Below are positions 14,872-25,478 of a DNA stretch of 64,000 bases, in pieces. The notes under the pieces are model-generated. The model saw only the letters and a program-made list of their open reading frames with translations. It was not told where the DNA came from and did no database searches. This DNA is from Telmatobacter sp. DSM 110680 (GTDB lineage: Bacteria > Acidobacteriota > Terriglobia > Terriglobales > Acidobacteriaceae): positions 3,968,001 through 4,032,000 of the forward strand of contig NZ_CP121196.1 of the NCBI RefSeq assembly GCF_039994875.1, read 5' to 3'. How positions within the stretch are numbered: position 1 is the first letter of the stretch; every line of letters starts with the position of its first letter. Both the position numbers and the translations under genes were made by a program.

Positions 14872-15363
14872 CTATTGCAATGCGTCGCAAACAATAATCA
14901 TCTCGAACGACGTATCGTCGAACGCATAGCTCTGGCAGATTCTGAACTCGGGAGACTGCACGTGCAAGTTGTAGTCGCTTCCTGTGATTACCGCTGGCAC
15001 TGAAAGCCCGCAGTTGGCGGCGAGGTCGGGAACTTTGCTCTTCCATGTTCCCGCCAGCATGTTGCAGATTTCTCCGATTGCGTCTTTCACGATGTCGTCA
15101 ACAGTTTCGAATTCCATGCCGGCCATGCGAGCCGCAATGGTGCAGGCCGCCAGAGCATCACAGCGAATGACGCAGGCGCCGCTCAGTATTCCGCCGAACC
15201 CTACAACTGCCGTCACCGACACTGCATCCTTGACGCCCGGGATGGATTTGACACCCTCCTCCAGACGGCATTGCACGCCCAGCATCGTCTCGAATACCTC
15301 GCGGACGCTGTGGTGCATATTCTCCGGGTCCGCAACCAGGTGCATCGAATCCTTCAACGTCAT
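14872..15363 (-). CDS. cheX: CheX/CheC-family CheY-phosphate phosphatase
   Basis: A 163-residue protein of the CheC/FliY/CheX fold. These proteins hydrolyse CheY phosphate to reset motor switching. One copy of the catalytic pattern is seen: DAIGEICNMLAGTWK, giving the E-x2-N pair, as in CheX. Flanking strands (VSVTAVVGFGGILSGACVIRC) match the family's first beta sheet. The ATG at 15363 is chosen because GGGGAG lies six bases upstream. An earlier ATG at 15450 would add 29 residues with no family similarity. It lies directly downstream of the cheY gene, its likely substrate. Confidence 0.85.
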   Translation of the reverse strand: MTLKDSMHLVADPENMHHSVREVFETMLGVQCRLEEGVKSIPGVKDAVSVTAVVGFGGILSGACVIRCDALAACTIAARMAGMEFETVDDIVKDAIGEICNMLAGTWKSKVPDLAANCGLSVPAVITGSDYNLHVQSPEFRICQSYAFDDTSFEMIIVCDALQ

Positions 15364-15454
15364 GTTCTTCTCCCCGCCACCTGAGGCCTGAATGCTGCGA
15401 TAGCCATGTACAGATCTTCTGACGCCATTCAGCATCATTGCCAACTCCATTCGC

Positions 15455-15838
15455 TCATGCTGGCGAAAGCAGCGACAGCACGCGTTGTTTCACCTGATCG
15501 GCAGTGAAGGGCTTGCGAATATACCCTCTGGCGCCGGCCTGAATGGCTTGTTTGACGTGTTCTTCACTGGATTCGGTCGTTATCATTACCACCGGAACTC
15601 CCGGAGCAAGCTGCTGGGAGTGGAGTTGGCGAACAAATTCCAACCCATCCATCGATGGCATGTTGATGTCGGAAAGGATAAGGTCGACCTTTTTCGATCT
15701 GAGAACTTCGAGTCCTTCTAATCCTGAGGCAGCCTCAAAGACTATGAGAGACTCCAGGCCCGCCTGCCGCAAAGATCTCTCAATGATCTTGCGCATTACC
15801 GAAGAATCGTCAACGATCAAGGCTCGGACTTCGCTCAT
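15455..15838 (-). CDS. cheY: CheY-like single-domain response regulator
   Basis: A 127-residue lone receiver domain. The acidic pair is in ALIVDDSS, the phospho-accepting Asp in LILSDINMPSMDGLEF (about residue 55), the conserved Thr in VVMITTESS, and the Lys in YIRKPFTADQ. There is no output domain, so it probably acts by binding a target such as FliM. The ATG at 15838 follows AGAGGAAG by six bases; a longer frame to 15907 runs into the upstream gene. No cheA or cheW is in this window. The downstream CheX-type phosphatase and the upstream fliM/fliN support a chemotaxis/motor role. Confidence 0.9.
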   Translation of the reverse strand: MSEVRALIVDDSSVMRKIIERSLRQAGLESLIVFEAASGLEGLEVLRSKKVDLILSDINMPSMDGLEFVRQLHSQQLAPGVPVVMITTESSEEHVKQAIQAGARGYIRKPFTADQVKQRVLSLLSPA

Positions 15839-15896: not shown

Positions 15897-16832
15897 TCAA
15901 GAAGCACTCACGGAGCAGATCACATCAGAGATTGCAGAAATATGCGAAATCGATTGAGATGTAGGGCCGAGCCACATTCGCAGCCAGACACAGTCGCGCA
16001 CCCGAACCAGGCGCGAATCCACCGGATGGAGCCTCTCGATGGAACGCGCCAGCAGATGGGCAGCAGCCGACACTGAAACTGCTTCCGCCAGCTGTACCGG
16101 CGGAAACTTCTTCTGGAGCATTCCGCTGAGGGCAGGACGAAATGCCGTGGATGGAACGATTCCGCTCTCCACGCGCATTCCTGTCATTCTGCTGACCGCG
16201 AAGGCCAGAACGGGGTCGAGAGTTTGCTCGAATCCGAGATAGATCAGCTTCCCTCCTGCCACGCGTAGCGGCAAAGCGCCAAACGCGTCCAGAAAGAGAC
16301 GTGGCATTGCAGAAGTCAGAACGGCTGCGTCCTGCGAGTCTGGAGAAAGAACGGGACAACTCCACTGCAGAGCCAATGCACGCGTGACGACGGATTCATC
16401 CGTAGCGCGCTGCGCGATCAGCCATTCGCCCAGCCTGCCAGAGCCAGCCGCTGTTTGCGCCTTGAGAGCCTCGCGCAATTGCACGCGCGTGATCCATCCC
16501 TTTTCGAGCATCAGCAACCCCAGGGGGATGCGGTGGCGATAGTTCTCGCAGGGGGCTGCGCGTCCGTCTAGTTCGCGGCGCAACGCGGACAACAGGCAAG
16601 CTTCCGTGCATTCCAGCGAACATGTCCATCCACTTTCGAACATCGGTGTCGAACGATGACGAAACAAATGCATCCAGCTGGAATGGCAACCAGGATTCGC
16701 ACAGCTCCTAAGCAGACCCGGACGAAAGCTGCGATTCCACGCAGTTTCCAAATCAAAATCGATTGAGGAAATTGGTTCTGCGACCTGCGAGGGGAGCGAT
16801 GACGGATCTGCGCGTCGCTTCAGAAGAGACAT
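15897..16832 (-). CDS. MshEN (GspE N-terminal) domain protein with cysteine-rich N-terminus, flagellar-cluster member
   Basis: A 311-residue protein of unknown function. Residues 44-79 hold C44-x4-C49 and C71-x3-C75-x3-C79 with nearby His, a possible zinc site. Residues 103-126 (LGLLMLEKGWITRVQLREAL) and 133-156 (RLGEWLIAQRATDESVVTRA) are two tandem 24-residue MshEN motifs, separated by six residues. They match the published c-di-GMP-binding pattern RLGxxLLxxGLLxxxxLxxxLxxQ, with Pro for the first Arg and Arg for one Gly. The second half resembles the rest of a T2SSE N-terminal domain, but no Walker ATPase follows. It starts inside the end of fliN (13-base overlap) and precedes cheY, so it is co-expressed with the motor switch. 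Binding of c-di-GMP is an inference from the motif. Confidence 0.8.
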   Translation of the reverse strand: MSLLKRRADPSSLPSQVAEPISSIDFDLETAWNRSFRPGLLRSCANPGCHSSWMHLFRHRSTPMFESGWTCSLECTEACLLSALRRELDGRAAPCENYRHRIPLGLLMLEKGWITRVQLREALKAQTAAGSGRLGEWLIAQRATDESVVTRALALQWSCPVLSPDSQDAAVLTSAMPRLFLDAFGALPLRVAGGKLIYLGFEQTLDPVLAFAVSRMTGMRVESGIVPSTAFRPALSGMLQKKFPPVQLAEAVSVSAAAHLLARSIERLHPVDSRLVRVRDCVWLRMWLGPTSQSISHISAISDVICSVSAS

Positions 16833-17587
16833 CGTATGCTCTCCAGCCGTTTCTGCGGTGTTGCAACTTCGGTGACACGCAATCCGAAATTCCCGTTTAC
16901 AAGAACGACTTCGCCGCGCGCAACAATCTTGTCGCCCACAATCAGGTCGACCGGATCAGTCACATGGCGATCCAGTTCCACCACATCGCCGGGGCCGAGT
17001 TCCAGAATCTCTCCCAGGGGCAATTCGCGGCAGCCAAATCGCAGGGCTGCCTCAAGCTCAACATCGAGGAGCAACTCAACGCCCGAACTCGCTTCTGGCT
17101 GCAGGTCCCCCGCATCCTCAGCAGGCGATGGATGCAATCGTGGTGCCGGGAATTGTTTTTCATCGCGTGCATTCCGGTATTGCAATGCATCGAGAACCCA
17201 GATCATCCATGAGCCGCCCGGCGAAACCAACCGGAAGCCTCGTGTACATACGTCCAAAGGGTCAGCAGGATGAATCGCTTCAATTCGGCAGGATTTACCC
17301 GAGGTTGAGAGGAAGTCGCCCGCCGCGGACTCCGCAATCTCACGCAAAAACTCGACCCAGGCACCTGTCTGATCCGCGCCTTCTCCGAGAAGCGGGGACT
17401 TGACGATCTCGCGATCAAGCATGACTGTGAAATTTCCAGTGACATCGCCGGAGATTTCTGCAACCAGAGCCTGCCCCGGAACGACGGCCGGAGGCAATTC
17501 ACACTCGGCCAAGTGGGGCTCGCCCGCCAGGGCCTGCGAAAAGAGGGTGGTCGCGGCCGATATCCAGCAATCCATGTAGGTCTTCAT
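16820..17587 (-). CDS. fliN: Flagellar motor switch protein FliN/FliY-like (long form)
   Basis: A 255-residue switch-complex protein. The C-terminal SpoA domain is clear: VELLLDVELEAALRFGCRELPLGEILELGPGDVVELDRHVTDPVDLIVGDKIVARGEVVLVNGNFGLRVTEV. The N-terminal 140 residues (with ISGDVTGNFTVMLDREIVKSPLL and an EFLREIAESAAGDFL helix) look like a degenerate CheC/CheX-type domain, as in FliY, but I see no E-x2-N catalytic pair, so phosphatase activity is doubtful. The ATG at 17587 overlaps the fliM stop (ATGA) with AGGAAGAG upstream. A second, short SpoA protein is encoded at 24947-25288. Confidence 0.88.
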   Translation of the reverse strand: MKTYMDCWISAATTLFSQALAGEPHLAECELPPAVVPGQALVAEISGDVTGNFTVMLDREIVKSPLLGEGADQTGAWVEFLREIAESAAGDFLSTSGKSCRIEAIHPADPLDVCTRGFRLVSPGGSWMIWVLDALQYRNARDEKQFPAPRLHPSPAEDAGDLQPEASSGVELLLDVELEAALRFGCRELPLGEILELGPGDVVELDRHVTDPVDLIVGDKIVARGEVVLVNGNFGLRVTEVATPQKRLESIRCLF

Positions 17588-18549
17588 GTGCGCGGCTCTT
17601 CCTGAGGCGCTTGTATTCGCGCGGCCCGGTGCGCTCCATGCCGGACGGGTTCTGCTGGAGCAAGATACTGTCCGCCCACCCTCCATTCAGCCGGTACTGC
17701 GGCCGAAAGATTCAGCCGCAACACGCTTCCGGGCGAAAGGTTTTGAATTTCGCACGCGGGCAGACGGACCGGAGGCAGTTGCAGACATCCGCCAAAACTA
17801 ATCTTCCGGGCCGCCGTCTCCAGGCTGGCTCGCGTTTCCGGTGCGTGGCGGCGATGTCGCCCCCAGTCCGAGGTCAGGCGGCGAAGGATTGTATTGGCTA
17901 CCACAGCCGGAAAAGCAAGATTGAGCAGCCCGGAACCCTGCGGCATGCGCACTTCGAAACTCAGGCAAAGCGTCTTCTCGGTGACGGACATGATGCGCGC
18001 AACCTGCGTCTGCATCTGTCGACGTTCAAAATTGAAGCTGAGACCAACGGACTGCCAGGCCGCTGTCAATTCGCGACAAATGATCTCAACCACGCTGCCC
18101 AGAATGGCCTCTTCGATATCCGTGAGTTCGCGAAGTGGCCCCTCCCGTCCCTCTCCTCCCAGCAGGAGATCGATGATGGGCGGCGCGAGCGCAAGGTCGA
18201 GTTGCAGAACCGACAAGGCGCCAAGTGGTTCAAGGCGAACCGAAGAGACATAACTGATCTCGGGGATGCGCATTAGGAATTCATTGAACGGAATCTGCTC
18301 GGCCGAAACCAGGTTGACCTGAAACTTGCACCGCAACCAAGCCGCAAGATTGTGGGTGAGGTTACGCGCAAACAAATCATTCAGCATACTGATGGCGCGG
18401 AGTTGCTCATTGGAAATCTGGCCCGCACGGTTGAAGTTGTAAGGAACCACGCTGGTGGATCTATCCAAATCCTCGACCGCGGCCGGCGTGGTGGTCCGGG
18501 CAGCTTGAAACAGAGCGTCGATCTCGTCTTGCTTGAGCATCTTCTCCAT
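17584..18549 (-). CDS. fliM: Flagellar motor switch protein FliM
   Basis: FliM links CheY-P to the rotor C ring. The 321-residue protein starts with MEKMLKQDEIDALFQAA, the CheY-P-binding segment. The middle domain includes YNFNRAGQISNEQLRAISMLNDLFARNLTHNLAAWLRCKFQVN, then LLLGGEGREGPLRELTDIEEAILGSVVEIICRELTAAWQSV. The C-terminal SpoA-like part (about 240-321) is more diverged, with only LPACEIQNLSPGSVLRLNL easily recognised. The gene follows fliA by about 55 bases and overlaps fliN. Confidence 0.94.
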   Translation of the reverse strand: MEKMLKQDEIDALFQAARTTTPAAVEDLDRSTSVVPYNFNRAGQISNEQLRAISMLNDLFARNLTHNLAAWLRCKFQVNLVSAEQIPFNEFLMRIPEISYVSSVRLEPLGALSVLQLDLALAPPIIDLLLGGEGREGPLRELTDIEEAILGSVVEIICRELTAAWQSVGLSFNFERRQMQTQVARIMSVTEKTLCLSFEVRMPQGSGLLNLAFPAVVANTILRRLTSDWGRHRRHAPETRASLETAARKISFGGCLQLPPVRLPACEIQNLSPGSVLRLNLSAAVPAEWRVGGQYLAPAEPVRHGAHRAARIQAPQEEPRT

Positions 18550-24946: not shown

Positions 24947-25288
24947 TTAAAGCAGACGGGTGATGCGAACTGCCAAAAGCTGATCGATCACTTCAAACTC
25001 TGCCCACGCCAACTGCGCACCGTGGGTTCCAAGGGGCATGTCGTCTCCGTTCATCCACTTCGAAGCGATCACCGTACCTGCGCTGAGATTCAGAAGATTG
25101 CGAACCCGAAAACCCCTGACGGGGACGGCGACATCGATCTCGACAGGAAGGCGAGCAACCAGCGGATTGATGCTGAGAACCCCTTCCACCGGCGGAGCCG
25201 GAGACGGCTGAGCCAGAACGGCTTCAGTCTTCATCTCCGCCAGACCGTTGGCAGTGGAGATCGTGGAAAGCTGGGATTGCGTCGCCAT
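24947..25288 (-). CDS. fliN: Flagellar motor switch protein FliN (short form, SpoA domain)
   Basis: A 113-residue SpoA-domain protein. The C-terminal 75 residues (SINPLVARLPVEIDVAVPVRGFRVRNLLNLSAGTVIASKWMNGDDMPLGTHGAQLAWAEFEVIDQLLAVRITRL) fit FliN's fold and its pattern of sheet and loops, followed by fliO as in fliN-O-P-Q-R operons. The ATG at 25288 is chosen; the frame continues to 25402 in a Leu/Arg-rich stretch without family similarity. It is the first gene of the visible cluster and is divergent from pdxS. It is the second FliN-type protein here, the other being the 255-residue form behind fliM. Confidence 0.8.
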   Translation of the reverse strand: MATQSQLSTISTANGLAEMKTEAVLAQPSPAPPVEGVLSINPLVARLPVEIDVAVPVRGFRVRNLLNLSAGTVIASKWMNGDDMPLGTHGAQLAWAEFEVIDQLLAVRITRLL

Positions 25289-25478
25289 ATGGCGGAGACT
25301 GGAGCAAGCAAGAACCCGCAAATGGAGCAGCTTCCTTAGAAGGGACTCATAATTGCGCGGGAATCGCCCCCAGCCCCAGCGTAAGCATCCGCAATTGGGC
25401 ATTCACTTCGCTGCTACACTAGAAGCAGAGATTGCCTGAGACATTTGTGAGCGACGGCTGAGATTTGAGGTCAAAGAT

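Follow-up and report, generated by a model that had tools for sequence, protein, structure and literature searches.

The action of c-di-GMP on the flagellar motor has been worked out mainly through YcgR-type PilZ proteins. To our knowledge, motility has hardly been studied in the Acidobacteriota, which are abundant in soil. The brakes YcgR, FlgZ and MotI have the PilZ fold and act on the motor as c-di-GMP effectors (PMC13432727). The MshEN domain (T2SSE_N) of V. cholerae MshE (5htl) has tandem 24-residue motifs, a four-helix bundle and an alpha/beta subdomain. In the canonical domain the motifs are separated by 5 residues, and the MshE contacts are R9, L10, G11, L25, L29 and Q32 in the first motif and R38, L39, G40, L54, L58 and Q61 in the second, with Arg9 stacking on guanine (PMC5013675). 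Two domains of a pilus ATPase, T. thermophilus PilF, show that these contacts can vary: GSPII-B (8pdk) lacks both arginines and binds c-di-GMP at 6 nM, and GSPII-C (6ejf), in which a proline (P335) opens the motif, has an affinity about that of MshEN (PMC11731258). XpsE and PilF GSPII-A have the MshEN fold and are reported as non-binders of c-di-GMP (PMC5013675, PMC11731258). MshEN domains also occur outside secretion ATPases, in NfrB, PA3740 and FrgA, where they are joined to other partner domains; none of these is described in a flagellar operon in the available parts of PMC5013675.

Here we describe an MshEN protein encoded in a flagellar operon of Telmatobacter sp. DSM 110680, within a 64,000-nucleotide stretch of DNA that was analysed as a whole (the window). 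The MshEN domain and its occurrence outside ATPases are already known, and what appears to be new is the architecture in a flagellar operon, with a cysteine domain in front of the MshEN domain and an additional C-terminal domain behind it. Neither this architecture nor an MshEN protein in flagellar operons was found in the titles and abstracts among the literature matches listed, which agrees with an earlier note on this DNA, whose author knew of no described flagellar regulator of this kind.

Results

The gene for the MshEN protein (15897-16832, minus strand; 311 aa, stop codon included) lies within a long series of flagellar genes on the same strand. The order of transcription is fliN, fliO, fliP, fliQ, fliR, flhB, flhA, fliA, fliM and a second FliN-family gene, followed by the MshEN gene, cheY, cheX, flgF, flgG, flgA, flgH, flgI, flgJ, flgM, flgN, flgK and flgL. 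FliM, both FliN-family proteins, CheY, CheX, FlgM, FlgJ, FlgA and FliO were checked against profiles, and the other names were given by eye; the matches of FlgJ (rod-binding; Pfam) and FlgA were under the cut-off, and flgN had no Pfam match. Directly upstream, a FliN-family switch protein with a long N-terminal extension (16820-17587, minus strand; FliMN_C 78.9 bits) overlaps the MshEN gene by 13 bases (16820-16832), and it is preceded by FliM (17584-18549, minus strand; PF02154 127.9 bits; TIGR01397 178.6 bits, under the cut-off of 219.6). Downstream lie a CheY-like response regulator (15455-15838, minus strand; Response_reg 110.4 bits), for which the closest model is CheY at a score far under the cut-off of that model, and a CheX-like CheY-P phosphatase (14872-15369, minus strand; PF13690 69.3 bits); both start codons were chosen by eye. 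The earlier note had given the same reading frame, length and fliN overlap and had placed the gene between fliN and cheY. The frame and overlap are confirmed, the profiles bear out a FliN-family gene upstream and cheY downstream, and the strand (minus), which the note did not give, is added here. The single flagellar gene set contains two FliN-family proteins (16820-17587 and 24947-25402), and the N-terminal extension of the one beside fliM had no Pfam match and appeared CheC/FliY-like by eye.

Two 24-residue motifs, at residues 103-126 (motif I; 16455-16526, minus strand) and 133-156 (motif II; 16365-16436, minus strand), had been recognized as MshEN-like from the letters alone. This assignment holds with three deviations, since NCBIfam NF053729 (MshE-related c-di-GMP-binding domain) matched residues 103-156 with 39.5 bits (cut-off 38), and the same model matched 24/24 members of the family alignment A1 at E<=0.01; both motifs are also supported by conservation. 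Pfam MshEN (PF05157) scored 18.8 bits, below its cut-off of 23.1, and covered residues 162-238 only; among the relatives, its score was under the cut-off for locus L167 (20.5 bits) and over it for L161 (29.3 bits). Using phmmer, the window protein matched PilF (6f8l, E=8.9e-12) and MshE (5htl, E=2.5e-4), and hhalign of the MshEN region of the family against 13 PilB sequences gave E=9.9e-26. The NfrB profile matched residues 100-229.

The counterparts of the MshE contact residues are P103, L104, G105, L119, L123 and Q126 in motif I and R133, L134, G135, V149, L153 and Q156 in motif II. The three deviations at contact or turn positions are P103 (R9 in MshE), R142 (G47) and V149 (L54); P103 is the single marked contact change, and motif II retains its arginine (R133). 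With P103, and with 6 residues between the motifs, the window protein has neither an arginine at the start of both motifs nor the 5-residue spacer. An arginine at the motif start is no strict criterion, because natural binders without it exist (GSPII-B and GSPII-C), and P335 of GSPII-C was aligned with P103 in the phmmer alignment. R101 accompanies P103 in 111/111 sequences, and it is also found in 7/10 sequences that have another residue at 103 (both positions filled); this pattern is suggestive of R101 compensating for P103, and the sequences are too few for a claim.

The structure prediction proposed in the earlier note, in which an unlike fold would have counted against its reading, favoured that reading. 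Using alignment A1, AlphaFold2 returned the full MshEN fold (pLDDT 83.7, pTM 0.80), in which the four-helix bundle is followed by the alpha/beta subdomain (MshEN_C, residues 158-241; 16110-16361, minus strand), delimited here by the sub-threshold PF05157 match (162-238) and by structural alignment of residues 100-241. At E<=0.001, 19/19 Foldseek matches were MshEN/GSPII N-domains, and the top match was c-di-GMP-bound PilF-GSPIIB. Solved MshE and PilF domains were likewise the best matches with VIA, where the six best were c-di-GMP-bound PilF-GSPIIB/MshE chains (Z 15.6-16.0, 134-137 residues, rmsd 3.0-3.3). GSPII-B (8pdk) was the best structural match (Z about 16) and MshE (5htl) had Z 15.7 over 135 residues with an rmsd of 3.0; lower values were obtained for X. 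citri PilB (Z 13.7), XpsE (Z 12.7), GSPII-C (6ejf_G, Z 12.4) and GSPII-A (Z 10.6). The glycines, glutamines and leucine-type contacts are common to MshE and the window protein, and the proline at the first motif position is common to GSPII-C and the window protein. Unlike MshE, the window protein has no ATPase, has a proline for Arg9 and a 6-residue spacer, and carries a cysteine domain in front and an extra domain behind; PilF GSPII-B and GSPII-C also differ from it in being part of an ATPase. The prediction together with homology indicates that the protein almost certainly adopts the MshEN fold. The non-binders XpsE and GSPII-A have the same fold, so the fold alone is no proof of binding.

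Conservation of the contact residues was examined in an HMM-based alignment of 124 sequences (123 loci and the window protein), using 11 contact-position tests in which I, V and M were accepted for L, and K for R. All 11 tests, including those of both glutamines and both glycines, were passed by 118/124 sequences; below this, two sequences passed 10, L172 and L166 passed 9, L043 passed 7, and L045, which is cut by a contig end, passed 5. L043 and L045 are degenerate copies in second flagellar gene sets of genomes G007 and G013, where a main-type copy is also present, and from their residues they are possible natural non-binders. For the entropy analysis, and for this analysis only, duplicate sequences were thinned to 60 under 70% identity. 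The mean entropy of the 12 contact positions was 0.62 bits, compared to 1.90 bits for the other residues of 100-157 and about 2.2-2.3 bits elsewhere in the protein, and random 12-position sets as low as the contact positions occurred in 0/100000 draws; the contact residues are partly helix-bundle core, so that their conservation cannot be read as a ligand signal alone, and the entropy contrast is inflated. Judging from the conserved contact residues, the domain would be expected, with good confidence, to bind c-di-GMP. The 311-aa protein has no ATPase domain after MshEN, its only Pfam match being the sub-threshold MshEN, and no PilZ or YcgR N-terminal domain was matched by Pfam. The lack of the usual ATPase, which had been noticed before, is borne out, and the view of a stand-alone MshEN domain gains support from it and from contact residues kept as for a receptor.

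In front of the MshEN domain, residues 1-36 are predicted to be disordered (AlphaFold2), and cysteines are found at positions 44, 49, 71, 75 and 79. All five had been listed in the earlier note and are present; conservation holds for the first four, as C44, C49, C71 and C75 (residues 44-75; 16608-16703, minus strand) are kept in 119/119 of the sequences covering those columns (of 124) and may form a zinc site, and it does not hold for C79, which is not conserved in the family. Compared to the PDB, the cysteine region gave a weak match to a Yng1 chain (E 0.46; treble-clef-like zinc-finger comparison). Behind the MshEN domain, residues about 244-311 (15900-16103, minus strand) form a C-terminal domain that the note had overlooked; predicted alone by AlphaFold2, it has a beta-alpha-beta-beta-beta arrangement (pLDDT 90.2). 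Foldseek found nothing for this domain at E<=0.001 (best E 0.09). The VIA matches to BsmI (Z 5.9) and a glyoxalase-family protein (Z 5.8) are in the chance range, and no fold was assigned. Its sequence looked similar to the N2 domain of PilB by eye, but a derivation from N2 is not supported, since hhalign against 13 PilB sequences gave E 0.23 and the match was to a different part of PilB.

The survey of flagellar clusters that the earlier note had suggested was made with two sets of relatives, of 25 and 80 loci; some genomes are in both sets (e.g. L021/L077, L022/L084), so the two counts are not additive. A FliN-family gene lies directly upstream of the MshEN gene in 24/25 loci, the exception being L045, with a contig end beside flgF, and in 78/80 loci, the remaining two of which begin at a contig edge. 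Immediately downstream, cheY follows in 15/25 and 58/80 loci; in the larger set flgF takes this place in 6/80, and none of the gene types of the window does so in 16/80, one of which runs out of sequence there. The linkage to cheY is mostly inside the genus of the window. The records listed for the 80 loci are all from Acidobacteriota, including Terracidiphilus gabretensis, Acidipila rosea, Edaphobacter lichenicola and Granulicella. The expected conserved flagellar neighbourhood was found, with a constant fliN side and a variable cheY side.

More distant members have one or two genes between fliN and the MshEN gene. At this place, L167 (9080-9496) and the other loci of L162-L170 encode a small membrane/coiled-coil protein, whose L167 copy matches DUF2802 at no better than E 0.15; L162 and L165 carry an HD/HDOD-like protein (by eye) as well. 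In L156-L159, fliA adjoins the FliN-family gene with no FliM between, and the pair of fliN and the MshEN gene is kept; the genomes of these loci have a FliM match elsewhere, 78.7 kb away in G265. In L160, the MshEN gene is beside flgF at a contig edge. A divergent member at L161 (9449-10270) has near-canonical motifs and all four cysteines, and its neighbours (tatD, secF and secD) are not flagellar.

Across 297 Acidobacteriota genomes with a completeness of 90 or more, FliM was over the cut-off in 80. Carriers of a full-length MshEN protein were defined by a match that begins no later than model position 60, among the matches listed (to about E 3e-17); there are at least 41 such genomes, and 41/41 are among the 80 with FliM (Fisher p 2.6e-28, with common descent ignored). 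In 35/41 carriers the MshEN gene shares the strand of FliM and lies no more than 5 kb downstream of it, and 40/41 copies are among flagellar genes. Among the matches listed, 39/80 FliM-bearing genomes have no MshEN protein, and therefore not every flagellum requires it. Taken together, the conserved neighbourhood and the co-occurrence make it very probable that the protein works in the flagellar system.

The genome of the window has 19 GGDEF matches and 4-5 PilZ matches, all of the latter outside the window, and neither of the YcgR N-terminal domains (PF12945, PF07317) was found in it. At least two further MshEN-like frames are present in this genome, at 2628843 (499 aa, contig C1; a c-di-GMP-motif match) and at 3066946 (585 aa). 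Among the 297 genomes, PilZ as such is found in 273, PF12945 in 9 (5 of these with the MshEN protein) and PF07317 in 1, without the MshEN protein. Neither YcgR N-domain is present in 36/41 carriers, and the other 5 hold a YcgR N-domain together with the MshEN protein, so that a strict replacement of YcgR by the MshEN protein is unsupported as a rule. In three genomes (G025, G030 and G060), the MshEN protein is present and there is no PilZ match.

Discussion

We propose that this protein may be a motor-level c-di-GMP effector, YcgR-like by role and of unrelated fold. As a soluble receptor, it would bind one c-di-GMP between the two motifs of its MshEN domain (100-241), and the N-terminal four-cysteine domain, together with the small domain at the C-terminus, would dock it on the switch, most likely on FliN. 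Rising c-di-GMP would then alter how the protein docks; as a result the rotor would slow, stop or shift its switching bias, which would help the cell to settle. We regard this explanation as a whole, a flagellar c-di-GMP receptor docked on the switch and altering rotation, as about evenly balanced. Its parts differ in strength. Among the neighbours, FliN alone is retained in operons that lack cheY or fliM, which makes FliN and the C-ring a likelier target than CheY; taken by itself, this target could equally well prove right or wrong, as gene order is no proof of contact. Braking as the output, suggested by likeness to YcgR, is more tentative. The PilZ proteins encoded elsewhere in the genome count against the reading as a motor effector, as they could serve that role; unlike the MshEN gene, the genes of YcgR/FlgZ/MotI-type proteins are not fixed beside fliN here.

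FliN is also the docking place of the export ATPase complex (FliN-FliH). A protein beside it could be a c-di-GMP-gated factor that controls flagellar export or C-ring assembly and not rotation, by analogy to the secretion and pilus machine ATPases that are the best-known MshEN hosts (PMC5013675). The MshEN gene is among structural and export genes in all closely read loci and remains next to fliN in loci without cheY; however, in the window it has no FliH/FliI gene as a neighbour, and the 39 FliM-bearing genomes without the protein among the matches listed also speak against this role, which we consider unlikely. A loss of c-di-GMP binding, with the MshEN fold serving as the scaffold of a structural flagellar accessory, is rather improbable. 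P103 in place of Arg9, the precedent of XpsE and GSPII-A (PMC5013675, PMC11731258) and the degenerate second-system copies (L043 with 7/11 tests, L045, cut by the contig end, with 5/11) would fit a scaffold, but all 11 contact residues are kept in 118/124 sequences, which would be needless for a mere scaffold, and GSPII-C binds c-di-GMP despite its proline at the first motif position (PMC11731258).

Very unlikely, in our view, is a tuning of chemotactic signalling through CheY or CheX. The genes cheY and cheX are next in the window, and cheY is next in most loci of both sets (58/80 and 15/25), but flgF or no window-type gene follows in others (6/80 and 16/80), and the cheY linkage is largely confined to one genus. 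Compared to the FliN-family gene upstream (78/80 and 24/25), this lower constancy weakens that part of the earlier note which had the protein act on CheY.

If the reading as a FliN-docked motor effector is true, the flagellar operon would contain a receptor of unrelated fold as a fixed neighbour of its switch genes, and another machine would have taken up the MshEN domain of pilus and secretion ATPases. Such proteins might form a second, PilZ-independent class of effector, through which c-di-GMP brakes or uncouples the rotor in a large part of the Acidobacteriota, G025, G030 and G060 among them; we hold this to be slightly short of an even chance. The action of c-di-GMP at the rotor would then become testable in the Acidobacteriota through a single gene.
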